A stretch of 64,000 nucleotides of DNA, taken from positions 1-64,000 of the forward strand of contig NZ_VICB01000005.1 in assembly GCF_006546835.1 (NCBI RefSeq), given 5' to 3'. The stretch comes from Actinomyces johnsonii (GTDB lineage Bacteria; Actinomycetota; Actinomycetes; Actinomycetales; Actinomycetaceae). This document shows positions 3,226 to 40,127 of this stretch, in pieces (the stretch's first letter is position 1; each line of letters begins with the position of its first letter). The notes beneath the pieces were generated by a model. The model was not told the DNA's origin. It searched no databases and was given only the letters and a program-made list of their open reading frames with translations. The translations under genes and the position numbers were made by a program.

Positions 3226-3297
3226 TGGGGTATGGTGTAATTGGCAACACGACTGATTCTGGTTCAGTTATTCTAGGTTCGAGTCCTGGTACCCCAG
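3226..3297 (+). tRNA. tRNA-Gln (anticodon CTG)
   Basis: Seven-bp acceptor stem TGGGGTA/TACCCCA, anticodon stem ACTGA/TCAGT with loop TTCTGGT (anticodon CTG, reads CAG), and a T-arm containing GGTTCGAGTCC. CCA is not encoded beyond the discriminator G. It is the first gene of a four-tRNA run. Confidence 0.95.
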
Positions 3298-3325
3298 CGG
3301 ATCTCATGTCATATGTTGATCTACT

Positions 3326-3398
3326 GCCCCCATCGTTTAGTGGCCTAGGACACCGCCCTCTCACGGCGGCGGCGCCGGTTCGAATCCGGCTGGGGGTA
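3326..3398 (+). tRNA. tRNA-Glu (anticodon CTC), copy 1
   Basis: Acceptor stem GCCCCCA/TGGGGGT, anticodon stem CCGCC/GGCGG with loop CTCTCAC (anticodon CTC, reads GAG), T-arm CCGGTTCGAATCCGG, discriminator A, no encoded CCA. First of three apparently identical copies. Confidence 0.95.
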
Positions 3399-3447
3399 CG
3401 AATCGGCGAGGGCCCACCGGTCCAAGCGGTTCACAACTACATACGTG

Positions 3448-3520
3448 GCCCCCATCGTTTAGTGGCCTAGGACACCGCCCTCTCACGGCGGCGGCGCCGG
3501 TTCGAATCCGGCTGGGGGTA
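3448..3520 (+). tRNA. tRNA-Glu (anticodon CTC), copy 2
   Basis: Same sequence as copy 1 and starting exactly 122 bases after it. The 49-base spacer before it is nearly identical to the one before copy 3. Confidence 0.95.
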
Positions 3521-3569
3521 CGAATCGGCGAGGATCCACCGGTCCAAGCGGTTCACAACTACATACGTG

Positions 3570-3642
3570 GCCCCCATCGTTTAGTGGCCTAGGACACCGC
3601 CCTCTCACGGCGGCGGCGCCGGTTCGAATCCGGCTGGGGGTA
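3570..3642 (+). tRNA. tRNA-Glu (anticodon CTC), copy 3
   Basis: Third copy, again 122 bases after the previous one. The sequence downstream of this copy differs from the spacers, marking the end of the tandem array. Confidence 0.95.
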
Positions 3643-3708
3643 CCAGGCACGAGGTCCGCACCGCCACCGGGTGATGCGGACCTTCTTGGCTCTTCTTGCG
3701 AAAAAAGA

Positions 3709-6396: not shown

Positions 6397-7377
6397 ATGA
6401 CTCTGTTCCGGCCTGCGTGCTTCATATCCACCGGATCCATCCTTATTGACATCCCCCTTCACGTCAGCCGGGTGCCGACTCCGGGAGGGGCGATCACCGG
6501 GGCGTCGTCGGGCCCGGTTGTGGGTGGCGGGTACACGGTGGTCTCAGCCGCTGCCCGGCAGGGGGTTCCCGCCGCTTTAGCAGCCACTTTGGGGACGGGC
6601 CCCAATTCGGCCCGGGTGCGCGAGTCGATGCGCCTGGACCAGGTCGAGCTCCTCGTCGAGGAGCTCGTCGGCGACATCGGCACCTGCACCACGCTCATCG
6701 AGCCCTCGGGCAGGCGAACCTTCATCACCACCGCGGGCGTCGAAGGCGAGCCCCAGCGCGAGGATCTCGAAAGCCTCGATCTAAGGGAGGGCGACTGGGT
6801 CTATGCCACCGGTTACGATCTGGCCCACTACACAAGCAGGGGCATTCTGGCCGACTGGCTCCTGTCGGTCCCTGACGGCGTCGGACTGGTCATCGACCTG
6901 GGCCCGGTCCAGCCCGACATCCCCGATCAGGTGCTCCTGCCACTGCTGTCCCGGGCGACGATGCTGACCGGAAACGACCTGGAGATGAGCCGGCTCGAGG
7001 AACGGCTGGGGGGCCCGAGCTCCATTCGCCGGGCCTGCCCGCGAGCGCTGATCGTCCGACGTACCGGCGTTCACGGGTGCATTCTTCATCCGGTCGGCTC
7101 CGAGCCGATCGAGGTCCCCGGTTTCATGCGCGACGTCGTGGACACGACGGGAGCGGGAGACACCCACACCGGTGTCCTGGTCGCCGGCCTCCTTGACGGA
7201 CTTGATGTCGTCGAGGCCGCCAGACGGGCCAACGCGGCCGCCGCCCACGCTGTGGCCTGCATAGGGCCGGCACAGGCCCCGCGCCGCGAGGAGATCGACG
7301 GGTTCCTCCGGGATGCCCCTGAGGGGTCGTGGCCCTCCGACGATGACTCTCAGCGGAGTAGCGGCCGGCCCGGATAA
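6397..7377 (+). CDS. PfkB-family carbohydrate kinase
   Basis: 326-residue ribokinase-fold sugar or nucleoside kinase, cytoplasmic. The C-terminal signature DTTGAGDTHTG carries the anion hole and catalytic Asp, and PVVGGGYTVVSAAARQG near the N-terminus matches the substrate-binding glycine region. The substrate cannot be read from the sequence. It follows rnj by 15 nt on the same strand, suggesting an operon. ATG 6397 is used; no strong ribosome-binding site is visible (GGGGGATG lies about 10 nt upstream). Confidence 0.88.
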   Translation: MTLFRPACFISTGSILIDIPLHVSRVPTPGGAITGASSGPVVGGGYTVVSAAARQGVPAALAATLGTGPNSARVRESMRLDQVELLVEELVGDIGTCTTLIEPSGRRTFITTAGVEGEPQREDLESLDLREGDWVYATGYDLAHYTSRGILADWLLSVPDGVGLVIDLGPVQPDIPDQVLLPLLSRATMLTGNDLEMSRLEERLGGPSSIRRACPRALIVRRTGVHGCILHPVGSEPIEVPGFMRDVVDTTGAGDTHTGVLVAGLLDGLDVVEAARRANAAAAHAVACIGPAQAPRREEIDGFLRDAPEGSWPSDDDSQRSSGRPG

Positions 7378-7468
7378 GGCTCGCGGTGAGAAGGTGATGT
7401 GTCTCCGGCCGTCCCAGGCGGCGTGGCAGGGCCGCCGAAGCTGAGAATCCGATAGTTTCTAAGACATC

Positions 7469-10372
7469 ATGGCCAATCGTCGCACCACGAGAACCGCTAC
7501 GTCTCCGTCCGGAACCGGCAGAGGGCGTAATCGGGGGGTACCCCCTCGAGGGACCGCTCCTGTCAACGCTCCTGCTCAGCCCTCCGGAGGACGTTACCGC
7601 CGCACCGGATGGGCATTCCTCATCCTGGCTCTTGCGGCGGTCTTGGCGCTGCGCGAGTGGTTCGGCATCTCCGGGGCCGCGGGGAGCTTCCTGCACCACA
7701 TCGCTGCCGGTCCCGTCGGCGTTCTTGGCCTGTTGGTGCCCCTGCTCCTGGCGGCGCTGGGGGTCGCCATGCTCCGGGTCCACAGTCTGGGCGCGGTTCA
7801 CGCCCGGGTCTCGGTGGGCTGCCTCGGTCTGCTGACTGCCCTGACGGGAATGATCCAGGTGGGCAGTGGCAACCCGGTGCTCAGGGACAACATCGGCGGT
7901 TTGGAGAGCGCTGGCGGACTGCTGGGATGGCTGGTGGGTTACCCGCTGGCGGCGCTGTTCTCCTCGGTGGGGGCCTTCATCCTGTTCATTTTCCTGGCCG
8001 CCTTCTCCTCTCTGGTCCTGTCCGGAAAGACCATCGCCGAGATCCGGGACCTGCTGGCGCAGCGTCGGTCCTCGGGCGCCGACGGAACCGGCGCCCCGTC
8101 CGATACGGCAGGCTCCGCAGACTCCCTGGCCCGGCGCCTGCTGGGACGGGTTCGTGGAGGTCTCGGAGGATCGAGAGCTGCCGGTGATGACTCGGAGCAG
8201 ACCGCGCTCCTGGACTCCTACGACGGTGACGAGCCCTTCCGCTCCGCGCTCGAGGTGGAGGAGTCGACCCCGCGCAAGCGCGGCAGCGGTCGGCGCAAGC
8301 GTTCCGCCGAGCGGGAGGCCCGGCAGACCTCGATCACTGAGCTCATCGAGCCGGGCGGAGACAGCGACGACGGCACCTTCGTCGTCCCGGAGACGGGTGG
8401 CGAGAATGACGCCGTCGCGGCGTCGGCCCCTTCGGTCGCCTCCCCGTCCAAGGGCAGGGCGCCCGGTTCCGCTGCCGGCCCCGGGGCGGCCGGATCGCCG
8501 GCGAGAGCGCAGCGCAGACCCTCTGCGGCGAAGCATCCCGCTGCGCCGGCCGCATCCAACTTCGACGCCGTCACCGAGGAGACCCCAGAGGTGCTCCTCG
8601 AGGAGCCCGATCTTGCCGATCAGCTCGCCATGAGTGACATGAGCATCATGGCACTGCCCGACGGCTCCACCTACTCGCTTCCCGAGGACGCACTGCTCGG
8701 TCCCGGGCCGGGGCACGCCACCCGTACCCCTGCCAATGACGCCATCGTCGAGGCGCTGCAGAACGTCTTCGCGGAGTTCAACGTGGACGCCACCGTCACC
8801 GGCTACACGCGCGGCCCCCAGGTCACCCGCTACGAGGTCCACCGCGGCCGAGGAGTCAACGTCTCGCGCATCACCGGGCTGGAGAAGAACATCGCCTACG
8901 CGGTGGCCTCAGACGAGATCCGCCTGCTCACACCGATCCCAGGCAAGAGCGCCATCGGCATCGAGATCCCCAACACCGACCGCGAGATGGTCAAACTCGG
9001 CGACGTCCTGCGCTCCCAGGCCGCCCGCAAGCAGCCGCACCCGCTGGTCGTGGGACTGGGCAAGAACGTCGAGGGCGACTACGTCGTCACTAACCTCGCC
9101 AAGACCCCGCACCTGCTGGTGGCCGGTCAGACCGGTTCGGGCAAGTCCTCCTTCGTCAACTCTATGATCACCTCGATCATGATGCGCGCCACTCCCGAGG
9201 AGGTGCGCATGGTGCTGGTCGACCCCAAGCGGGTCGAGCTGACCATCTACGAGGGCATCCCCCACCTCATCACCCCGATCATCACCTCACCGAAGAAGGC
9301 GGCCGAGGCCCTGGAGTGGGTGGTCCGAGAGATGGACACCCGCTATGACGACCTGGCCTCCTTCGGCTTCAAGCACATCGACGACTTCAACAAGGCGGTG
9401 CGCGCCGGAGAGGTCCAGCCCCTTCCCGGTTCCCAGCGCGAGCTGAGTCCCTACCCCTACCTTCTGGTCGTCGTCGATGAGCTCGCCGATCTCATGATGA
9501 CGGCGCCCAAGGACGTCGAGGCCTCCATTCAGCGCATCACCCAGCTTGCCCGTGCCGCCGGGATCCACCTGGTCCTGGCCACCCAGAGGCCCGTCGCCCA
9601 GGTGGTCACCGGCCTCATCAAGTCCAACGTCCCCTCTCGTCTGGCCTTCGCCACCGCCTCGCAGCTCGACTCCCGCGTCATCCTCGACCAGAACGGGGCC
9701 GAGACTCTCACTGGCCAGGGCGACGCCCTCTACCTCGGCCCCGGGGCCTCCACTCCGGTGCGCATCCAGGGCTCCTGGGTCACCGAGTCCGAGATCCGCT
9801 CCGTCGTCGAGCACGTCAAGGCCCAACTGACCCCCGAGTACCGCGAGGACGTCGTCGTCCCGGAGGTCAAGAAGCAGATCGATGAGGAGATCGGCGACGA
9901 CATGGATCTGCTCCTGCAGGCCGCCGAGCTCATCATCTCCAGTCAGTTCGGCTCGACCTCCATGCTCCAGCGCAAGCTGCGCGTCGGCTTCGCCAAGGCC
10001 GGGCGCCTCATGGACCTGCTCGAGTCCCGAGAGGTTGTCGGCCCCTCAGAGGGGTCCAAGGCCCGTGACGTCCTCGTCCAGCCCGAACAACTCGAGGAGA
10101 CCCTGGCCTGGATCAAGGGGGAGGGCGGCGCTCCCGGAGGCGCTGAGGCTCCCGCCGGCCCTGAAGGATCCCAGGACGGGCCCATCACCGGGGATTCGCC
10201 GGCCCCCGCCGCGGGTGAGTCCCGCACGGCGGCTCTTCCGTCGAACCGCTATCGCACGGATCCGCTGGAGGCCGACCCGAACCTGCCGGAATCGGAGTCC
10301 TGGGAGGACTCCTCAGCCGAGGAGGACTCCCAGGACGCCTGGTCGCTCACCGGTCGCGGCTCATCGTGGTGA
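7469..10372 (+). CDS. ftsK: DNA translocase FtsK/SpoIIIE
   Basis: Septum-anchored DNA pump that clears and resolves chromosome termini at division. 967 residues. The N-terminal quarter has about four membrane segments (starting [17 protein letters not shown]), then a long Ser/Pro/Ala-rich linker. The motor domain has Walker [10 protein letters not shown] and Walker [14 protein letters not shown]. The C-terminal gamma winged helix (from [16 protein letters not shown] to [18 protein letters not shown]) recognises KOPS-like DNA. An acidic tail rich in Glu, Ser and Asp follows the gamma domain. Converges on the CapA-like gene with only 29 nt between stops. Confidence 0.97.
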
Positions 10373-30677: not shown

Positions 30678-31631
30678 TCACGCCGTGAAGATCTGGCCGG
30701 GCAGGTCGCAGAATCCCCGGGATACCGAGGCCCGCCCATGGCTGGAGAGGATGACGCACTCGAAGCGGAAAGCTTGAGCCAACTGCTCCGGATCCGCGCA
30801 GAACAGGGCGGTGGCCAAGCCGTCGGCGGCTGCGCAGGACTCGGCCACCACCCAGGTGGCCGTTATGTTCTTGGCGGGTAGCCCGGTGAGCGCGTCGAGA
30901 ATATGGTGCAGACCCGTGCCCCAGGAGCGCCGGTGCGGGCTTGATCCGCATACGGCGCCGCGGGTTACCTCCACGGTCCCGACGACGATGCCCTCCCTGC
31001 CCGGCTGCTCCAGTCCCACGCGAACCGGCTTCCGACTGTGGATGAGCAGGTCGCCCGAGCCGTCGATGACGAATTCCTCGATGCCGTGGGCCAGGAGGAT
31101 CTCGCCCATGTCATCGGCCAGGAATCCCTTGCCGACGGCGCCCACATCCAACAGTGCCGGATGCGACATGGTGAGCCGGTCGCCGTCGTGCCTCACGACG
31201 TCCGTCCACGTGCCCCGGCCGTGGAACGCGCCGATGCGCTCGGCCGCACCGCTCCTGACCGTGAAGCTCAGTTGAGGGTCGTACCCCAGCTCCACCAGGT
31301 CGGCCCCGCACAGAGGATCGATGCGTCCGTGTGACGCGGCGTGCAGCCGGTCGTAGAGGTCGAGCATGATGGACGAGCCTGCGGGCAGCTCCACCGTGAT
31401 CGGACCCTCGCCCAGTGCGCCGTCTGCGATACGACGCACCAGGGACGACGGGCGGAACCTGGACCATACGGCTTCGAAGGTCTCCGCATGCTCGATGACA
31501 GCTGCTCCCGTCCTCGGTGGGAGCCGGGACGGGGTGCGAACCGTCCAGATGGTGCCTGTTGCGGGAAAAGAAAAAGACCCGCCATCGAGTGAGGCCAGCG
31601 TGGAAGGGGCCATCCAGTGAGATGAGGTCAT
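30678..31631 (-). CDS. apbE: ApbE-family FAD:protein FMN transferase
   Basis: 317 residues. ApbE proteins attach FMN covalently to a Thr in (S/D)GA(T/S)xT motifs. Family motifs seen: ATGTIW near the N-terminus, WSRFRPSS, LLDVGAVGKGFLADD, VIDGSGDLL, HHILDALTG and AADGLATALF (Mg-binding Asp). No signal peptide or lipobox is visible, unlike many exported ApbE proteins. ATG 31631 has AAAGGAG 11 nt upstream. Divergent from the iron operon whose last gene encodes a protein with an FMN-acceptor motif, its probable substrate. Confidence 0.88.
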   Translation of the reverse strand: MTSSHWMAPSTLASLDGGSFSFPATGTIWTVRTPSRLPPRTGAAVIEHAETFEAVWSRFRPSSLVRRIADGALGEGPITVELPAGSSIMLDLYDRLHAASHGRIDPLCGADLVELGYDPQLSFTVRSGAAERIGAFHGRGTWTDVVRHDGDRLTMSHPALLDVGAVGKGFLADDMGEILLAHGIEEFVIDGSGDLLIHSRKPVRVGLEQPGREGIVVGTVEVTRGAVCGSSPHRRSWGTGLHHILDALTGLPAKNITATWVVAESCAAADGLATALFCADPEQLAQAFRFECVILSSHGRASVSRGFCDLPGQIFTA

Positions 31632-31772
31632 CGCCTGCTGCTCTCCTTTCCGCCGATCGAGAGGGTTGACCTCGACGTGAACATACTGCGTGTTCCCGTG
31701 GCGATGTACGCGAGGATATCGGCGTCTTCCCAGGAAACGAACTGACGTTTTGTCATGAATGCCGTCTGACCT

Positions 31773-31802
31773 TTGACGATGAAGGTTAGGGAAGCCTAAG
31801 CT
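31773..31802 (+). promoter_or_regulatory. Possible promoter of the iron operon
   Basis: TTGACG (31773-31778), an 18-nt spacer and a weak TAAGCT (31797-31802). The DtxR-like box overlaps the -10 part. Transcription starting near 31809 would favour the downstream start codon of the FTR1 gene. Confidence 0.35.
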
Positions 31803-31804
31803 TC
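31786..31804. promoter_or_regulatory. DtxR/IdeR-like iron box
   Basis: The 19-bp window beginning TTAGGGAAGCCTAA matches about 14 of 19 positions of the DtxR/IdeR consensus and has TTAGG/CCTAA arms. It lies between apbE and FTR1 and could control both according to iron. Confidence 0.6.
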
Positions 31805-31894
31805 AGTGTGAGGATGTCGATATTCATGAATGTCATCGACAGATTCGCAAGAAGGCTCGACCGACAGTTCCCAGCTGTGCAAAGGACAACCCGT

Positions 31895-33754
31895 ATGCGC
31901 CATTCACAGGCAGCGCTCCCGCACCGGCGTGACGGCTCGTTCGCCGCCTGTGCCGCATTCGCGCTGATGGCCATGGCCCTGTTCATCACCCCCCTCCTGT
32001 CCTACCCAGCGCTGCGGGCCGATGCCGCCGAGTCCGCTACCGACTACGACACGTGGACTGCTGCTGCGACCACTGTCGACACCGAGCTTCAGGCAGCCGT
32101 CGCCCAGTACAACAGCGGAAACACCTCCGGTGCCGCAGCAGGTATACAACGCGCCTACAACACGGCCTACGTGGCCTCCAACCTCTCGCGCGTCACTACC
32201 GACCGTATCGGTGTCCAGAGAGCCGCAGACCACAAGACCACGTTCGACTCCCTGAGGCAGTCGGCGTACTCCGCGGGCAATGGAGAGGCCCTATCCAGCC
32301 AGGCCGCGGCGCTGTCGGCTGACATCGCCGCCGATGCCACGCAGCTTGACGGCATGGCCGATCTTGCTGGCCCCCGCGACTACGCCGCTCAGCAAGCGGC
32401 GACCACAGCCACCGAACGCGCCCAGCTCGACGCCAAGAAGACCAACGTCAACGAGGGGCGTGGGGAGCGCAGCTGGGCGCAGGTCGCCTCCGAGATGAGC
32501 GGCCTCATCGACCAGGCGGTCGAGAAGACGCGGTCCGGCGACGGACAGGGCGGGGCGGAACTGGTCAACAAGGCCTACTACGGCTACTACGAGAAGCTCG
32601 GTTTTGAGAAGACCGTCATGGCCGTCATCTCCGGAGACCGCGTCTCCGAGGTCGAGAATCAGTTCAAGGTGGTTCGCAAGGCCATGATTGCGGGGGACTC
32701 GAATGCGACGGCGCAGTCCGAGCGCCTCAAGGACATGATCACTCAGGACGCTGGCACGCTCGATGCGAGCGGAGGCAAGGTGAACCCCGTACGAGCCTTC
32801 TTCACCGGCTCCTTCGGACAGGCCTTCCTCATCCTGCTTCGTGAGGGGCTCGAGGCGATCCTCGTGGTCGCCGCCGTCATCGCCTACCTCATCAAGGCGG
32901 GGCTCAAGGACCGGGTCCGGCTGGTCTACCTGGGTCTGATTCTGGGCCTGGTCGCCTCCGGAATCGTTGCGGTCCTGTTCGCCGTGCTCTACAACTCTGC
33001 CTCCTCCCACCAGGAGATCCTCGAGGGCGCCGTGGCGCTCATAGCCATGGTCATGCTCCTGTTCACCTCCAACTGGATGCTCTCGAAATCCTCGGTCAGC
33101 TCCTGGAACGCCTACATCAAGGACAAGACGGAGGCCTCCGTGTCCACCGGGGGCGTGTGGGCACTGGCCTCCTTGTCTTTCCTAGCGGTCTTCCGGGAAG
33201 GCGCCGAGACGGTCATGTTCTACCAGGCCCTGCTCACCATGGATCGCTCCGGCGGAGCTTCCATCTGGCAGGGATTCGCCGCCGGGATGGTTGTCCTCGT
33301 GGCCGTTTTCCTGGTCATCCGCTACACCAGCGTCAAGATCCCGCTGCGCCCCTTCTTCGCGATCACCAGCGCGCTCATGGCCATCCTGGTGGTCATCTTC
33401 GCCGGCGGTGGCCTCCATGCCCTCATCGAGGGTGACATCGTCTCAGGCACCTACGTGACGGGTTGGCCCACCTACGACTTCCTGGGCATCTACCCCTACC
33501 ACGAGACTCTCGTGTTCCAGGCCCTCATCGCCATCGTTGTCGTCGTTCTCGGAATCGTCTCCACCATCAAGAGGCGTCAGGCCGAGCGCACGCATCGGGC
33601 GAATGACGAGCGCGGTCTGTCGACTCGGCGGTCCGGTGAGGCCGGCCGTTCCTCGAAGGATGCGGCCGAGGAGGCAGAGGAAGCAGAGGAGGCCGAGCAG
33701 GTCGAGCAGGTCGAGGAGGCCGAGGAGGTTGCCGACGTTTCCAGTGCCCACTGA
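31895..33754 (+). CDS. FTR1-family iron permease
   Basis: 619-residue membrane protein. After a signal peptide (hydrophobic AFALMAMALFITPLL, cleavage near ADA) comes an extracytoplasmic, mainly helical domain of about 250 residues, then about seven membrane segments with the two iron-path motifs REGLE (Arg316-Glu320) and REGAE (Arg434-Glu438). The C-terminal tail is strongly acidic, Glu-rich and repetitive. FTR1 proteins pass Fe3+ produced by an oxidase or handed over by a P19-like protein. ATG 31895 is chosen because AAAGGA stands 8 nt upstream and the signal peptide is then normal; codons at 31808, 31814 and 31826 are alternatives. First gene of a seven-gene run. Confidence 0.9.
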   Translation: MRHSQAALPHRRDGSFAACAAFALMAMALFITPLLSYPALRADAAESATDYDTWTAAATTVDTELQAAVAQYNSGNTSGAAAGIQRAYNTAYVASNLSRVTTDRIGVQRAADHKTTFDSLRQSAYSAGNGEALSSQAAALSADIAADATQLDGMADLAGPRDYAAQQAATTATERAQLDAKKTNVNEGRGERSWAQVASEMSGLIDQAVEKTRSGDGQGGAELVNKAYYGYYEKLGFEKTVMAVISGDRVSEVENQFKVVRKAMIAGDSNATAQSERLKDMITQDAGTLDASGGKVNPVRAFFTGSFGQAFLILLREGLEAILVVAAVIAYLIKAGLKDRVRLVYLGLILGLVASGIVAVLFAVLYNSASSHQEILEGAVALIAMVMLLFTSNWMLSKSSVSSWNAYIKDKTEASVSTGGVWALASLSFLAVFREGAETVMFYQALLTMDRSGGASIWQGFAAGMVVLVAVFLVIRYTSVKIPLRPFFAITSALMAILVVIFAGGGLHALIEGDIVSGTYVTGWPTYDFLGIYPYHETLVFQALIAIVVVVLGIVSTIKRRQAERTHRANDERGLSTRRSGEAGRSSKDAAEEAEEAEEAEQVEQVEEAEEVADVSSAH

Positions 33755-33914
33755 TACGACCCCTCCGGCTAGCAGTCGAATCCCGCACCCAGACCCACTG
33801 ATCCGCGGCTGCTGCGACGCCCGTGCTAACAACCCGGGCCGGCGTCACGGCTCACCACCGCACATCACCCAACCACATCGCTGCCAAGCAGCCGCAACAC
33901 AGCAAAGGAATCCC

Positions 33915-34523
33915 ATGCGTACACTCAAGATCGTCAGCGCCATCGGAGCAATCGTCCTAGCGGGCACCCTGGGGCTGACCGCCTGCTCCTCCGGTGACAA
34001 ATCCAACGCCTCCAGCTCCGCCTCGGCCGCCGACGACGCCAAGGGCAAGGGCTTCGAGGAATATCCTGTCGGTAGCGACAAGGAGGCCGAGAAGCAGATC
34101 AACGTCTCCGTCGTCTACTTCCAGCCTATCGACATGGAGCCCCAGGGGATGGGGCTCAAGGCCGCTGACGCTTCCTTCCACCTGGAGGCCGACGTCACCG
34201 GGCTGGAGGGCAACACCCTGGGCTACGGCAAGGGCGATTTCGTCCCGGGACTGACCATTGACTACTCCATCACCAACAAGGACACCGGGCAGGAAGCCAC
34301 CAGTGGGACCTTCATGCAGATGAACGCCTCCGACGGCCCCCACTACGGCGCCAATATCGCCCTGCCGGACGCTGGCACCTATCAGCTCACGCTGAAGATC
34401 CACAGCCCTGCCGAGAACGGCTGGATGCTCCACGTCGACAAGGAGACCGGCGTCGAAGGGCGCTTCTGGACAACCCCCATCGAGCTCAGCTGGGACTGGC
34501 AATACACTCCGCACGAGTGGTGA
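33915..34523 (+). CDS. Tpd/P19-type iron-binding lipoprotein
   Basis: 202 residues. Lipobox LTAC puts it on the outer membrane face. The mature domain belongs to the Tp34/P19 iron-transport family: VVYFQPIDMEPQGMGL and ADASFHLEADV supply the Met/His/acidic metal-site residues, and GPHYGANIALP is a further conserved stretch. P19 partners FTR1 in Campylobacter and other bacteria. ATG 33915 follows AAAGGA. Encoded 160 nt after FTR1 and before the DUF2318 gene, the family's standard neighbourhood. Confidence 0.9.
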   Translation: MRTLKIVSAIGAIVLAGTLGLTACSSGDKSNASSSASAADDAKGKGFEEYPVGSDKEAEKQINVSVVYFQPIDMEPQGMGLKAADASFHLEADVTGLEGNTLGYGKGDFVPGLTIDYSITNKDTGQEATSGTFMQMNASDGPHYGANIALPDAGTYQLTLKIHSPAENGWMLHVDKETGVEGRFWTTPIELSWDWQYTPHEW

Positions 34524-34671
34524 CGGCTAAGAACACGCGGGGCCGATGACGTGACCGGCTGTGTTCCTCGGTGCTCGTCTGGAGGATCGGGTGAGGAAGT
34601 GAATCCCGACCGCTCCGGCGTGCGCGAGGCGGCCGGCCGTCGTCGGCCTCTGAGCCAACTCAAGGAAGAAG

Positions 34672-35964
34672 GTGCTCACAGGCATGTTGGAACGGTTTGT
34701 ATCCGTCGTCGGTGGCATGGCTATGCCTTTCCTGCTCCTGGCCGCGCTGGCAGTGAGCCTGGCCCCTGATATCGTCAACGGGTGGCCCAGGGCCAGCCGC
34801 GCCAGATTCGCCGCAACAGTCGTTGGACTGGCCGGTGCGGGTATCTTCGCCGCGCTTCGGGCCACCGCCATTCTCGCGTCTCGCACCGCCGTCAATCTGC
34901 CCGCGGCGAGCGCCCTGGTGATCACCGACGTCCTGCTGATCGCGGTGCTGATCATGCTGGTCGCCAGACCCGCCTGGGGTTATACGGGGCGATTCTCGCC
35001 GGTCGCCAACGCCGTGGCATGCCTGGTTCTGGCTCTGGCTTTCTTTCGAGCGACCCCGGACGTCATTCTGCAACTGTCGGCCTTCATCGCCCCCGGGGAG
35101 GCCACCTTCTCCTCTGAGATGCTCCTGCGCGTGCTCGGCTTCCTGGGAGGATGGTGCGCTGTGGCGGTACTGGCCTTCATCTATGTGCGTGCCTGTAAAG
35201 GACTTCCGCGGCGCATCACGAACCTGGCCGTGCTCGGCTTCACCGTCATCATGACCGGAGCCGACGCCCTGACTCTCATGCGCCTGCTGCACGCCGCGCA
35301 CCGCATCACGCTGTCCCTGGAGGCGTTTCGGCTCGTTGTCTGGGCGAGCAACAACATGCAGACCATGATCCTGTTCCTGGCCGCCGCGGTTTTCCTCATT
35401 CCCCTGACAGGCCTGTTCGTCACCAGTTTGCGGCGTCTGCCGGAGCAGCCCAACCCGGCCGTACGGCGCTCGCGTCGGGCCGAGCGCCGCCGCAGCCGTC
35501 GATGGGTATTGGCCTCCGCGTTTGGCTTCGGTGCTCTGGTCCTGACCCGCACCGTTGCCTTGGCTAAGGTCAATGAGGTTCCTCAGCTTTCCGATCCCGA
35601 GCCCTACAACCTCGACCAGGCCGCTGGGCTCGCCCGCGTCTCACTGTCCGGCTTGGCCGACGGGCACCTCCACCGCTACGCCTACGCCGCCTCCGGGGGC
35701 ATCGAGGTCCGCTTCATCGCGATTCTCAAGAACGGAGGGGCCTACGGGGTCGGGCTAGACGCCTGTGAGAACTGCGGGCCTTCGGGCTACTTCGAGAAGG
35801 ACGGCAAGGTGATCTGCAAACGCTGCGACGTCGCCATCAACCCCGCCACCATCGGATTCAAGGGAGGATGCAACCCCATTCCGGTGGACTTCGAGGTCGA
35901 TGGTGGGGACCTAACCATCGCCACCGCTGTGTTGGAGGACTCCGCGAAGGTGTTCAAACGATGA
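34672..35964 (+). CDS. DUF2318 membrane protein with Cys motifs
   Basis: 430 residues: about seven N-terminal membrane segments, then a DUF2318 domain with two Cys pairs, DACENCG (Cys365, Cys368) and ICKRCD (Cys382, Cys385), and a further Cys in GGCNP. Such proteins are annotated as Fe-S or metal-binding and co-occur with FTR1/P19; the biochemical role is unproven, electron or metal transfer being plausible. Start GTG 34672, with AAGGAAGAA before it; ATG 34684 is possible. Confidence 0.85.
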   Translation: MLTGMLERFVSVVGGMAMPFLLLAALAVSLAPDIVNGWPRASRARFAATVVGLAGAGIFAALRATAILASRTAVNLPAASALVITDVLLIAVLIMLVARPAWGYTGRFSPVANAVACLVLALAFFRATPDVILQLSAFIAPGEATFSSEMLLRVLGFLGGWCAVAVLAFIYVRACKGLPRRITNLAVLGFTVIMTGADALTLMRLLHAAHRITLSLEAFRLVVWASNNMQTMILFLAAAVFLIPLTGLFVTSLRRLPEQPNPAVRRSRRAERRRSRRWVLASAFGFGALVLTRTVALAKVNEVPQLSDPEPYNLDQAAGLARVSLSGLADGHLHRYAYAASGGIEVRFIAILKNGGAYGVGLDACENCGPSGYFEKDGKVICKRCDVAINPATIGFKGGCNPIPVDFEVDGGDLTIATAVLEDSAKVFKR

Positions 35965-36015
35965 GCCCCCTCAGCCCGCGACCCGTCTGTCTCGCGCTGG
36001 GAAAGGAGTCCTGAG

Positions 36016-37320
36016 ATGTTCTTCATCCGGTTGCTTCGCCGTTCCTTCGTCCGCCAGCTGCGCCGTCGCTCGCTGATCGCCCTGACCGTGGCCCTGTGCG
36101 CGTCTATCTCGGTGGCCATGCTCGGCGTCGTCCTCGACGTGGGCGACAAGCTCAACGCCGAGCTGACCAACTACGGCTCCAACATCGTGGTCCAGCCCCG
36201 CGCGGGTGCGGTAGTCGACAACCTCTACGAGACGAACAAGGACAAGGAGGCGGCCTCCTTCCTGGATGAGAAGGAGGTCACCAATATCAAGACGATCTTC
36301 TGGGCCTACAACATCGTGGACCTCACACCCAGGCTGTCGGGCTCCGTCAAGGTCACGGGCTCGGGGGTCGGCAAGGAGGACTCCGAGGGGACCGAGGTCC
36401 TGGCTGCGGGAGCCTGGTTCAACAAGGACGTCAAGCTCTCCACTGGGGAGTCCACCACCCTGGGAGTGTCCACCATGCGCTCGTGGTGGAAGATGGATGG
36501 CACCTGGCCCGCCGACGACGCCTCCCAGGCCGTCGTCGGCACCAAGCTCGCGCAGCGCATAGGCGTCTCCCAGGGGGATACCATCACGGTCACCGGGCCC
36601 CAGGGCGAGGAGAGCCTCACCGTCACCGGGATCTACACCGCCGGGGACAAGGACGACCAGACGTTCTACGCCCCCCTGGCCGGCATTCAGAAGGTCACCG
36701 GGCACGACGGCCAGGTCGATGAGATCGAGGTCAAGGCCTTGACCACCCCCGAGAACGACTTGTCTCGCAAGGCCGCCGCCAATCCAGCCGCCCTGTCCAC
36801 CGCGGAGTGGGAGACCTGGTACTGCACGGCCTACGCCTCGTCCATCTCCTACCAGATCGAGGAGGTCGTCACCGGCGCCGTTGCCAAACCCGTCCGTCAG
36901 GTCGCCGCGGTGGAGGGCAACGTGCTTTCCAAGACGCAGGTGCTTATGATCCTCATGACCGCTCTGAGCTTGGTTGCCGCAGCGTTGGCCGTCGCCTCCC
37001 TGACCACCGCCTCCTTGGTGGAGCGCACCGGGGAGTTCGCCCTGCTCAAGGCGGTGGGGGCCTCGTCGGCCTCCATCAACCGGCTCATCCTGGCCGAGAG
37101 CGCAGTCATCGGGGCGATCGGGCTGACGATCGGGGCCGCGGTGGGTTCCGGGCTTGCCCAGCTCATTGGCCGAGTCGTCTTCCACTCGGGCATCACCATG
37201 CGCCCCATGGTCTATGTGCTGGTTGCAGTCCTGGTAACCGTGGTCCTGCTGGCCGCCACCGCTTCGTCCATGCGCTCGATCCTGCGGATCCAGCCTGCCA
37301 TTGCCCTGCACAGGAGGTGA
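36016..37320 (+). CDS. FtsX/MacB-type ABC transporter permease 1
   Basis: 434 residues with one N-terminal membrane segment, a large extracytoplasmic domain and three C-terminal membrane segments, the classical MacB/LolC layout. GEFALLKAVGASSASINRLIL is the conserved cytoplasmic coupling region. In P19/FTR1 loci two such permeases and one ATPase accompany the iron proteins. AAAGGAGTCCTGAG precedes ATG 36016 as ribosome-binding site. Confidence 0.9.
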   Translation: MFFIRLLRRSFVRQLRRRSLIALTVALCASISVAMLGVVLDVGDKLNAELTNYGSNIVVQPRAGAVVDNLYETNKDKEAASFLDEKEVTNIKTIFWAYNIVDLTPRLSGSVKVTGSGVGKEDSEGTEVLAAGAWFNKDVKLSTGESTTLGVSTMRSWWKMDGTWPADDASQAVVGTKLAQRIGVSQGDTITVTGPQGEESLTVTGIYTAGDKDDQTFYAPLAGIQKVTGHDGQVDEIEVKALTTPENDLSRKAAANPAALSTAEWETWYCTAYASSISYQIEEVVTGAVAKPVRQVAAVEGNVLSKTQVLMILMTALSLVAAALAVASLTTASLVERTGEFALLKAVGASSASINRLILAESAVIGAIGLTIGAAVGSGLAQLIGRVVFHSGITMRPMVYVLVAVLVTVVLLAATASSMRSILRIQPAIALHRR

Positions 37321-37325
37321 CGCAG

Positions 37326-38714
37326 GTGCCCGGAGAATCCTCGCGCCGCGGTGGCCGCCCCATGTCGAACCGCCGCATGTTCCTCACGATGCTGGTCGGC
37401 GCCACGCTCCGACGCCGTAGCCGTGCCCTGGCCGCCCTGCTCTCCTCCGCCGTGGGAGCCGCGACGCTGTTCTGCCTGGCCGCGGTCTGCCTAGCAGTAC
37501 CGGCCCAGATGACCGCCCAGATGCGCCAGTTCGGGGCGAATCTCATCGTCGTACCCGTCTCCGCCGAGGCGACCACTCCCCGTATCACCGAGCAGTCGGC
37601 CCGGGCCGCCGTTCGGGCCGCAGCATCGACCACCGGCACCGAGACAGACCGCATCAGGCAGGCCGACTACCGCTACGAGACGGTCCGCATCAACCGCTCC
37701 CCCTACTTGCTGGCGGGCATCGACGTCGACGACGTGCGGCGCCTCAACGGGCACTGGTCCCTGGAGGGCTCATGGCCCTCTGGCGGCCAGGTCCTCGTGG
37801 GCAAGGACGTTGCCGAGGCAGCCTCCCTCAAGGTGGGCTCGACCATCACCGCCGAGTACCTCTCCAGTGACAACCTCTCCTTGGACAATTCCCACCAGAG
37901 CTCTGCTTCCGGCGCCACTACCGATGCCGCCTCCGGGAGCACCGGCCATTCCGGTCACGGTGGCCATTCCGGACATGACGGCCATTCCGGACATGGCGGT
38001 CACGGTGGCCACAGCGGTTCCTCGGATGGTGGCGCGGCCGGTGAACCCGCCGTCACCGAAAGCGCCCAGGGCACCGCGCAGTGGCAGGTCGCCGGAATCG
38101 TTGACACCGGTGGCCAGGAGGACGATATCGTCTACGCGACCTCCGCCGACGTCGACCGGCTCACCGGAACATCGTCGGCGGGATACGACGTCGTCGAGAT
38201 GTCCGTCGACACCTCGTCGACGACCATGGACGACGTCGTCGCCGCCGTGGAGTCCGCCGGCGGCGGCCGGCTCCAGGCCCAGCCGGTATCCAAGATCACC
38301 TCCGGCGACACCCGGATCATCACGATGCTCAACACCCTGTTCTGGGTGGTCTCCGCCGTGGTTCTGGGACTGACACTGGTCGGGGTGTCCACCACCATGA
38401 CCGTCATCGTCTCCGAGAGGCGCAACGAGATCGGCCTGCGCAAGGCCCTGGGGGCCTCGGGACGCTCCATCGCCACCGAGTTCTACTCCGAGGTCGCCGT
38501 CCTGGGAGCCATCGGCGGCATCCTAGGCACCGCCGTCGGGTACGGTCTGGCCGTCGCCGTGTGCCGCAGCGTGTTCGAAACGACCCTGGTGTTCAACTGG
38601 CCGCTCGCGATCGTCTCGGTGGTGCTGACCTCGGCCGTGGCCGTCGCCGCCTCCTACTCCCCGGTGCGCCGGGCCTCGCGCATCGATCCCGCACTCGTCC
38701 TCAGGGAGGAATGA
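37326..38714 (+). CDS. FtsX/MacB-type ABC transporter permease 2 with His-rich loop
   Basis: 462 residues with the same 1+3 membrane layout and coupling segment NEIGLRKALGASGRSI. The extracytoplasmic domain contains a low-complexity insert with eight H-x-G tripeptides in a row (His208 to His229), a likely metal-binding loop, flanked by Ser/Ala/Gly-rich sequence. GTG 37326 has AGGAGG 8 nt upstream; GTG 37317, overlapping the previous stop, and ATG 37362 are alternatives. It pairs with permease 1 and the ATPase encoded 1 nt downstream. Confidence 0.9.
   Translation: MPGESSRRGGRPMSNRRMFLTMLVGATLRRRSRALAALLSSAVGAATLFCLAAVCLAVPAQMTAQMRQFGANLIVVPVSAEATTPRITEQSARAAVRAAASTTGTETDRIRQADYRYETVRINRSPYLLAGIDVDDVRRLNGHWSLEGSWPSGGQVLVGKDVAEAASLKVGSTITAEYLSSDNLSLDNSHQSSASGATTDAASGSTGHSGHGGHSGHDGHSGHGGHGGHSGSSDGGAAGEPAVTESAQGTAQWQVAGIVDTGGQEDDIVYATSADVDRLTGTSSAGYDVVEMSVDTSSTTMDDVVAAVESAGGGRLQAQPVSKITSGDTRIITMLNTLFWVVSAVVLGLTLVGVSTTMTVIVSERRNEIGLRKALGASGRSIATEFYSEVAVLGAIGGILGTAVGYGLAVAVCRSVFETTLVFNWPLAIVSVVLTSAVAVAASYSPVRRASRIDPALVLREE
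37947..38012 (+). repeat. In-frame tandem repeat encoding eight H-x-G units
   Basis: A 9-base-periodic run (CAT/CAC, then TCC/GGT/GAC/GGC, then GGN) encoding His at residues 208, 211, 214, 217, 220, 223, 226 and 229 of permease 2. Codon usage varies between units, so it is maintained at protein level rather than being a very fresh duplication. Confidence 0.9.
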
Positions 38715-38715
38715 C

Positions 38716-39519
38716 ATGCTGCTCGAGCTGTCACACGTGTCCAAGATCTACGGCGACCTGCACGCACTGGACGACCTCAGCCTGGAGGTGCCGCGCGGCC
38801 AGTGGCTCTCCGTGGTCGGTTCCTCGGGCTCGGGCAAGACCACGCTCATGAACATCGTCGGCTGCATGGACACCCCGACGAAGGGCTCGGTCAGGCTCGA
38901 CGGCCGGGAGCTGGGCAGCCTCAACGCCGCCCAGCTCACCGACATCCGCAAGAACGTCATCGGCCTGGTCTTCCAGCAGTTCCACCTCATCGGCCACCTC
39001 ACCGCGGTGGAGAACGTCATGGTGGCCCAGTACTACCACTCGATGACCGATGAGAAGGAAGCGCTCGAGGCACTGGAGAACGTGGGACTGGCCGACCGCG
39101 CCGACCACCTGCCCTCTCAGCTCTCCGGGGGCGAGCAGCAGCGCGTATGCATCGCCCGCGCACTCATCAACCACCCCGAGATCGTCCTGGCGGACGAGCC
39201 CACCGGGAACCTGGACGAGACCAACGAGCAGCTGGTCCTGGACATCTTCTCCCGCCTGCACGAGCAGGGGACGACACTCATCGTCGTCACCCACGACTCC
39301 CACGTCGCCTCCTGCGGGCAGCGCCAGATCCTGCTCAACCACGGCCGCCTCGTCGGGGAGAAGCTCTCCGAAGGCGACGAAGGACGACGTACCAGCACCA
39401 TGCTCGACTTCGACGACAAGCCGCCGGGCGCTGACGGCGGTGGCACGACCGGAGCCGAGATCAAGAGCGCGGACGAGGCCGATCCCCTCGGCGAGCCCGA
39501 GCCGAAGGAGCAGCGGTGA
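38716..39519 (+). CDS. ABC transporter ATP-binding protein (MacB/LolD type)
   Basis: 267 residues. Walker A GSSGSGKTT, signature LSGGEQQR and Walker B VLADEPTGNLDETN are intact; the D-loop and the length fit the LolD/MacB subgroup that drives FtsX-type permeases mechanically rather than by transmembrane transport. Begins 1 nt after permease 2; its stop overlaps the GTG of the FMN-binding gene. The C-terminal 40 residues are a nonconserved acidic extension. Confidence 0.94.
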   Translation: MLLELSHVSKIYGDLHALDDLSLEVPRGQWLSVVGSSGSGKTTLMNIVGCMDTPTKGSVRLDGRELGSLNAAQLTDIRKNVIGLVFQQFHLIGHLTAVENVMVAQYYHSMTDEKEALEALENVGLADRADHLPSQLSGGEQQRVCIARALINHPEIVLADEPTGNLDETNEQLVLDIFSRLHEQGTTLIVVTHDSHVASCGQRQILLNHGRLVGEKLSEGDEGRRTSTMLDFDDKPPGADGGGTTGAEIKSADEADPLGEPEPKEQR

Positions 39520-40127
39520 GCCCCGAGATCCCAAACCGTCCGCGCGACCCAGAGCAGACCTCGCCGACCCGCCGGCGGAGTCAACCCAGGAATCCGGACG
39601 GCGGCGGCCTAGCCGGCTCCCGGGCACTGGCCGTTGCCGGAGTGCTTCTAGCCTCAGCGGGTCCGTTGACCGGCTGCGGGGGAGGGGAGGTGACACCCTC
39701 CCAGGGGGACTACGCTGGGCGCGCGCAGACCGCCGGTCCCGCCGGAAAGCCCACCAGCCCGGCCTCCGCGTCCGCCCCCATCGCCTCGCCGACGGCCGGT
39801 CCCTACGCCGACGGCACCTTCTCCGCCTCCGAGGCCTACGGTCCGGTCGACGACCTGATCGAAGACGATTCCCTCGACGTCAGTCTCACCCTGTCCGGCG
39901 GGGTGATTACGGACGTGAAGGTTTCCGGTCACGCCTCGACCGGAACCTCCAAGGAGCACATCCAGAACTTCGTCGGCTCCATCGACGCGGCCGTCGTCGG
40001 CCACAGCATCGAGGACGCCCATGTCCAGGCCCTGGCCGGAGCCTCCAAGACCTCCAACGCCTTCAACGACGCCGTCGACGCCATCGTCGCGCAGTCCCGG
40101 GCATCGGCGGCGCAGTCGATGTCCTGA
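39516..40127 (+). CDS. FMN-binding-domain lipoprotein
   Basis: 203 residues. The N-terminus is long and Arg/Pro-rich, then a hydrophobic stretch ends in LTGC (Cys54), predicting a lipoprotein. After a Ser/Ala/Pro linker comes a single FMN-binding domain; AGASKTS (174-180) matches the ApbE target consensus (S/T)GA(T/S)x(S/T), with Thr179 the predicted FMN attachment site, and SLTLSGGVITDVKVSGHA is the usual first strand. GTG 39516 overlaps the ATPase stop (GTGA). With the divergent ApbE it forms an enzyme-substrate pair, suggesting one-electron transfer to or from iron at the surface. Confidence 0.87.
   Translation: MSPEIPNRPRDPEQTSPTRRRSQPRNPDGGGLAGSRALAVAGVLLASAGPLTGCGGGEVTPSQGDYAGRAQTAGPAGKPTSPASASAPIASPTAGPYADGTFSASEAYGPVDDLIEDDSLDVSLTLSGGVITDVKVSGHASTGTSKEHIQNFVGSIDAAVVGHSIEDAHVQALAGASKTSNAFNDAVDAIVAQSRASAAQSMS

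Follow-up and report, generated by a model that had tools for sequence, protein, structure and literature searches.

A P19/Fet-type iron cluster in Actinomyces johnsonii with an FMN-binding lipoprotein and an apparently exchanged flavin gene pair

The p19 locus of Campylobacter jejuni (fetMP-fetABCDEF) is an eight-gene cluster with a core of six genes, including one for a DUF2318 protein with the motif CxxC-x13-CxxC-x14/15-C, and with genes for the thioredoxins FetE and FetF; it has a Fur box, and the descriptions of the cluster used here include no apbE (PMC6083913, PMC10783030). Mutants in fetA, B, C, D and in fetEF are reported to show poor, iron-dependent growth, with fetA to fetD needed, fetE and fetF redundant and the direction of the redox step left unsettled (PMC10783030). 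The same six genes are reported from 33 species, in Actinobacteria with an FMN-binding seventh gene that was proposed to provide reducing power (PMC6083913). In Bifidobacterium breve, the iron-induced bfeUO-sifABCDE system comprises the FTR1 permease BfeU, the metal-binding BfeO, which was likened to a T. pallidum lactoferrin transporter, the membrane protein SifA, two FtsX permeases, an ATPase and the FMN-binding SifE, and sif and apbE mutants are both described as impaired only by ferrous chelators (PMC5449479). A broader survey counted 260 P19/FTR1 clusters that include an FMN-binding gene, most of them in Gram-positive bacteria, and proposed a redox role in iron uptake; its account of these clusters describes no module exchange (PMC8238504), and the account in PMC10979944, as far as it was available, adds nothing on P19. 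Here we describe such a cluster from Actinomyces johnsonii, at positions 30678 to 40127 of the window, by which we mean the first 64,000 nucleotides of contig NZ_VICB01000005.1 (assembly GCF_006546835.1). An earlier note on this DNA had regarded the coupling of flavin and iron as uncharacterised, although it had already been published in 2017 (B. breve bfe/sif), 2018 (Liu, mBio) and 2021 (Meheust, eLife). The Actinomyces cluster belongs to the described kind, as a variant in which the flavin pair has apparently been exchanged.

The gene list of that note stands in full: apbE on the reverse strand, followed on the forward strand by genes for FTR1, Tpd/P19, FtrD (DUF2318), two FtsX permeases, an ATPase and an FMN_bind lipoprotein, all eight found in the order and orientation it gave and each backed by Pfam. 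The order FTR1-P19-DUF2318-FtsX-FtsX-ATPase is that of P19/Fet-type clusters, and the FMN-binding seventh gene follows the Gram-positive style. The Actinomyces cluster differs from that of C. jejuni in having an FMN protein in place of the thioredoxins, an apbE, and a DtxR/IdeR-like instead of a Fur box; it differs from the B. breve system, which is described as two transcription units with apbE elsewhere in the genome (Bbr_1825, read as an Fe-S protein gene) (PMC5449479). The cluster is probably a system for iron assimilation of the P19/Fet (sif) type, with the FMN lipoprotein as its outer electron carrier, a dedicated divergent apbE and a swapped flavin pair.

In such a system, the P19 lipoprotein would catch iron outside the membrane, FtrD and the FtsX-type ABC unit would handle it, and the FTR1 permease would pass it through the membrane. 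A surface flavoprotein may plausibly donate or withdraw electrons in iron handling. The FMN lipoprotein, in the slot held by thioredoxins in Campylobacter, would be the outer electron carrier, most likely taking electrons from a membrane partner, for which FtrD is the best candidate within the cluster, and most likely reducing iron on or near P19. The product of the divergent apbE would be a dedicated flavin transferase, probably working in the cytosol and placing FMN onto Ser177 before the lipoprotein is exported. What we observe is the gene content, the linkage and exclusivity of the flavin pair, the missing block in two close relatives, the two trees and, on reading the sequences, the absence of a leader; covalent FMN, the direction of electron flow, FtrD as donor, cytosolic attachment and iron regulation are what we infer.

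A profile search of the home genome (3.35 Mb in 42 contigs) gave a single match each for FMN_bind and ApbE, and both lie in this cluster. Among 151 genomes of the same family, P19 was matched in 37, strongly in 35, and the core is present in 33 of these 35; the other two (G379 and G394) have FTR1 and P19 without the remaining core. Both flavin genes occur in all 33 core genomes, so that the co-occurrence for which the earlier note had suggested a survey is not limited to one genome. Pfam recognised the FMN lipoprotein in 31 of them; in G437 and G479 it was identified by inspecting the gene that follows the ATPase. The two genes adjoin the core in 32 of the 33, the exception being G444, where the contig ends behind the first FtsX and so cuts the core, and the FMN and ApbE genes lie together on another contig. 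These searches found no further FMN_bind or ApbE gene in any core genome. FMN_bind was matched in 16 and ApbE in 19 of the 118 core-less genomes (Fisher p 1.6e-21 and 3.6e-20 against the core genomes, uncorrected for kinship, with gene-by-gene reading for the FMN protein applied to the core genomes and Pfam only to the others). P19 matches are rare across 346 genomes of the phylum (13, all but two weak).

Every Actinomyces locus with a visible flank has the cluster in one slot, with miaB, with or without GAPDH, on one side and ybjN-miaA-dapF on the other. In two close relatives (G457 and G483) the whole block from apbE to the FMN gene is absent, and ybjN comes next after GAPDH, some 135 bases separating the aligned flanks; the flanks have 85-93% DNA identity over most of their aligned parts, and the ybjN proteins are 98 and 97% identical. 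The block is missing along with TetR and GAPDH in G445, and no cluster gene stands at the slot in G476, G469, G490 and G383, the last two of which hold other DNA there, in G383 with a match to an unrelated ABC ATPase on the opposite strand. A different FMN-ApbE pair of G469 (L074, 7709-9348) has VSGATYTS and a Ferric_reduct gene nearby. In the metagenome-assembled genome (MAG) Actinomyces sp. S28M_Sa_3 (L086, 7615-11164), FtsX, ATPase and ApbE are present and no FTR1, P19, FtrD or FMN gene was seen, which points to decay or an assembly fault.

Between apbE and FTR1 lies TTAGGGAAGCCTAA (31786..31799), a palindrome like a DtxR/IdeR box. No other exact TTAGG-N4-CCTAA occurs in the genome; when one mismatch is allowed, the pattern is not commoner than its reversed control (13 against 19). 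The region scores 14 of 19 against the consensus of the DtxR/IdeR iron box. A 14/19 match or the exact palindrome is found near the start of the FTR1 frame in 25 of 33 loci. Across 40 loci there are 41 sites scoring at least 14, against 4, 5, 4, 4 and 9 in five shuffles, with several sites outside the FTR1 start region and some loci being near-copies. These sites suggest that the cluster may be regulated by iron. The tie between flavin module and iron cluster that had been claimed earlier is borne out by the co-occurrence, by the pair being the only one found in these genomes, by the absence of the block in two relatives and by this palindrome.

The FMN protein of Actinomyces is of a short type with AGAS; that of the other P19 clusters is longer, and their apbE lies directly downstream. 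The core genes are common to both groups in order and sequence. In an ApbE tree of 41 rows, 13 Actinomyces ApbEs (12 beside a core or part-core, plus that of A. gaoshouyii) join those of FMN_bind-ApbE pairs from Solirubrobacter, Agrobacterium, Sphingomonas, Okibacterium, an actinomycete MAG and G388 (support 100/98), separate from 18 other P19-linked ApbEs. A constraint uniting the two P19-linked groups, which were defined by gene neighbourhood before tree building though after pairwise scores were known, is rejected (approximately unbiased (AU) test, p 3.1e-8). The FMN tree (37 rows) is concordant but weaker (AU p 0.037), and the program warns of long branches. The ApbE tree omits 16 of 57 frames, namely 10 near-copies, L079, L080 and L082 (equal to G428, G348 and G494), L086, L074 and L076; the FMN tree omits 10 near-copies of 47 and does not include the FMN genes of G437, G479 and G444, and B. 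breve SifE is in neither tree. Because two trees place the pair elsewhere and the core is shared, the pair appears to have been swapped as a unit on a common core: judged by sequence, the flavin gene and apbE of Actinomyces belong to a lineage distinct from that seen in the other P19 clusters examined, and together they replaced an older pair. The P19-free pairs nearest to that of Actinomyces in both trees resemble it in their GSS/GAS acceptor and leaderless ApbE, and differ in having no P19 core alongside. The G388 pair adjoins a ferric-reductase-like gene; no such neighbour was found at the other five pairs, for each of which one or two neighbours were tested. Aldo/keto reductase genes adjoin the Agrobacterium and Sphingomonas pairs (L087 and L089).

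The FMN lipoprotein gene (39516..40127, forward strand) overlaps the ATPase stop codon with its start and encodes a lipobox, LTGC, with Cys54. Its Pfam match is a weak pass (PF04205, 6.1e-5; 24 bits, with the cut-off at 22), and its identity is also backed by a fold match to FMN_bind and by a sequence-profile match to 8p2a at 2.2e-4. We took the solved FMN_bind domain from PMC10339131 and the canonical ApbE acceptor motif from PMC12052999. The earlier note had named Thr179 as acceptor. That residue does exist, being the T in KTS, but it is Ser177 in QALAGAS (40044..40046, forward strand) that falls at the consensus acceptor position. This serine is invariant in 18 of 18 sequences and is aligned with the SGAT Thr of 8p2a; Thr179 is thus probably wrong, and Ser177 the likely acceptor.

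The apbE gene (30678..31631, reverse strand) encodes a predicted FAD:protein FMN transferase (Pfam PF02424, 2.6e-35, positions 2-253 of 266), and its closest relatives are in named Actinomyces. Export as a lipoprotein is usual, not defining, for characterised ApbEs; no leader was seen in the open frame of this one. By sequence reading and a 15-residue hydrophobicity mean, no hydrophobic leader precedes the domain in any of 54 ApbE frames (highest mean 1.0), and in 12 of them a stop closes the frame within 16 residues of the domain motif. One lipobox-like string occurs, in L041 and its duplicate L079, and no hydrophobic stretch precedes it. The 54 frames, from 57 with L086, L074 and L076 omitted, include the duplicates L079, L080 and L082 and not the ApbE of G444. 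The FMN proteins of P19-linked types have a lipobox in 40 of 40 cases and leader hydrophobicity of 1.27-2.60 on the same measure, and are predicted lipoproteins. Because ApbE shows no export signal, its partner lipoproteins have a leader and the genome has one ApbE match, the flavin may be attached before export, and attachment in the cytosol would be the simplest reading. Cytosolic ApbEs are known (PMC12052999), and the eLife survey reports discarding genes without a signal peptide (PMC8238504), so that leaderless ApbEs in P19 clusters may have escaped it. Twin-arginine export was considered and rejected as a solution to the topology, as RR is found in some FMN leaders and absent from others (L065 and L059 types).

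FtrD (34672..35964, forward strand; Pfam PF10080, FtrD-like, 8.9e-30) is a FetA-type membrane protein with about eight long helices, followed by a Cys-rich C-terminal domain with the motif CxxC-x13-CxxC-x14/15-C (C365, C368, C382, C385 and C400, all five invariant). A predicted model of this domain (window 35620-35955) resembles Rieske-type ferredoxins, yet the ligands would be CxxC pairs. No sequence support for a Rieske domain was found: the best weak profile matches are ribosomal uS14/S29 zinc ribbons and transferrins, and the weak Pfam matches are zinc-ribbon and ephrin-receptor-like. With Foldseek alone, neither of two predicted models had a match below 0.001, and no literature joining DUF2318 with Rieske proteins was found. 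Haem ligands in the membrane part were rejected, no helix His being conserved in at least 90% of 42 sequences. Potential donors were sought in 42 genomes (34 of the 35 strong P19 genomes, without G444, plus G348 and seven other Actinomyces), or in 40 where G379 and G394 are also omitted. Ferric_reduct (3 of 42, none with P19), NqrB/RnfD (0 of 42) and Fer4_5 (0 of 40) were rejected as membrane donors; DsbD-like proteins occur in 36 of 40, with or without the cluster, and are the sole family of the four in P19 genomes. G361 and G493 have the cluster and none of these four families was found there; PepSY and DUF4405 were not searched. A fuller model, in which interchangeable flavin cassettes sit on a P19 core, a leaderless ApbE flavinylates its substrate in the cytosol before export and a Rieske-like four-cysteine centre of FtrD feeds the FMN for iron reduction, is tentative and, taken as a whole, rather doubtful. 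We found no published account of flavin-module exchange in P19 clusters or of an exchanged flavin pair in Actinomyces, of leaderless ApbE in such clusters or its mismatch with a lipoprotein partner, or of the DsbD-only donor result and the Rieske-like FtrD model, in searches that did not have exchange itself as a subject and did not cover supplements.

Several points weigh against the proposed reading of the cluster. No iron phenotype for Actinomyces was found in the literature, and two bifidobacterial species are reported to keep sifABCD without SifE, so that the flavin protein is not indispensable everywhere (PMC5449479). In 8 of 33 loci (L040 and L041, both Actinomyces, L042 and L057-L061), the search near FTR1 gave no iron-box-like site; DsbD-type proteins, possible alternative donors, are present in 30 of 32 core genomes tested; and ApbE and its substrate are predicted to be on opposite sides of the membrane. 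C. jejuni FetE and FetF look like oxidases, so electron flow in the opposite direction is possible (PMC10783030). Fe2+ would then be oxidised during FTR1 loading, and the FMN lipoprotein would carry the electrons to the membrane. FTR1 systems with ferroxidase partners are known, which speaks for a flavin that accepts electrons. So do the resemblance of FetE to thiol oxidases, the promotion of oxidation by FetEF (PMC10783030) and the link of B. breve Sif to ferrous iron (PMC5449479). However, the authors of the FetEF study themselves propose a relay of reducing power (PMC10783030), reduction is preferred, or the redox step left open, in Liu 2018 and Meheust 2021 (PMC6083913, PMC8238504), and the -184 mV given for the solved FMN_bind protein is low for accepting electrons from iron (PMC10339131). 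We regard an electron-accepting flavin as unlikely.

The acceptor motif is a further difficulty, since QALAGAS lacks the Asp and the first [ST] of the canonical D-x-x-[ST]-G-A-[ST] and keeps only G-A-S. With two fixed positions changed and an ApbE without a leader, the site might have drifted, the ApbE might serve another target in the cytosol and the lipoprotein might be a loose flavin binder or a scaffold. Against this stand the invariant Ser177 and conserved FMN_bind fold, the lack of any other FMN_bind match in the genome, the joint exchange of flavin protein and ApbE, and the report that changing the Asp to Ala had only a minor effect in one tested substrate (PMC12052999). A lipoprotein without covalent flavin is thus very unlikely in our estimate.

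Finally, the slot in A. gaoshouyii (L072, at about 6997-8899, and L080) holds the flavin pair only, with open frames and no core, and no iron-box-like site was found in this locus. Together with the related FMN-ApbE pairs that have no adjacent P19 core (those of Agrobacterium, Sphingomonas, Okibacterium, Solirubrobacter and the actinomycete MAG), this would fit a pair with an envelope redox job of its own that shares only regulation with the iron cluster. However, a trace of the ATPase end before the FMN gene, read by eye, suggests that A. gaoshouyii lost its core, and the loss may be recent. The linkage in 33 of 33 genomes with no second pair found, and the absence of the entire block in relatives, likewise make a separate job improbable, and we retain the FMN lipoprotein as the probable electron carrier of the iron system.

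The remaining cluster genes, all on the forward strand, begin with the FTR1-type permease (31808..33754; PF03239, 4e-29, residues 339-541), which has a long N-terminal region and keeps two RExxE motifs, REGLE and REGAE, as read from the translation. The P19/Tpd-type lipoprotein (33915..34523) is assigned by PF10634 (Iron_transport, 3.8e-59) and by sequence. The FtsX/MacB-type permease (36016..37320; PF02687 and PF12704; FtsX 4.3e-13) and the second, FtsX-type permease (37362..38714; PF02687; FtsX 2.3e-18) are followed by an FtsE/MacB/LolD-like ABC ATPase (38716..39519; PF00005, ABC_tran, 5.8e-35), for which no NCBIfam family scored above its own cut-off among the 25 matches listed. The starts of P19 (33915) and of the second FtsX (about 37362) are corrected, likely positions. 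In other loci, FTR1 is found as more than one frame in L038 (4635-6223), and FtsX2 and FTR1 each as more than one in L084 (3439-5412 and 8061-9895). One tRNA-Gln gene and three tRNA-Glu genes form an array at 3226-3645 of the window.

P19/Fet systems are present in many human-associated bacteria, and a single FMN_bind match and a single ApbE match, both within the cluster, make this a clean genome for testing their redox step. A leaderless ApbE, with an exported lipoprotein as its only candidate FMN_bind substrate, makes the site of flavin attachment testable: is the lipoprotein exported with covalent FMN? Since the flavin pair appears to have been exchanged as a unit, the redox part of the system would be modular.
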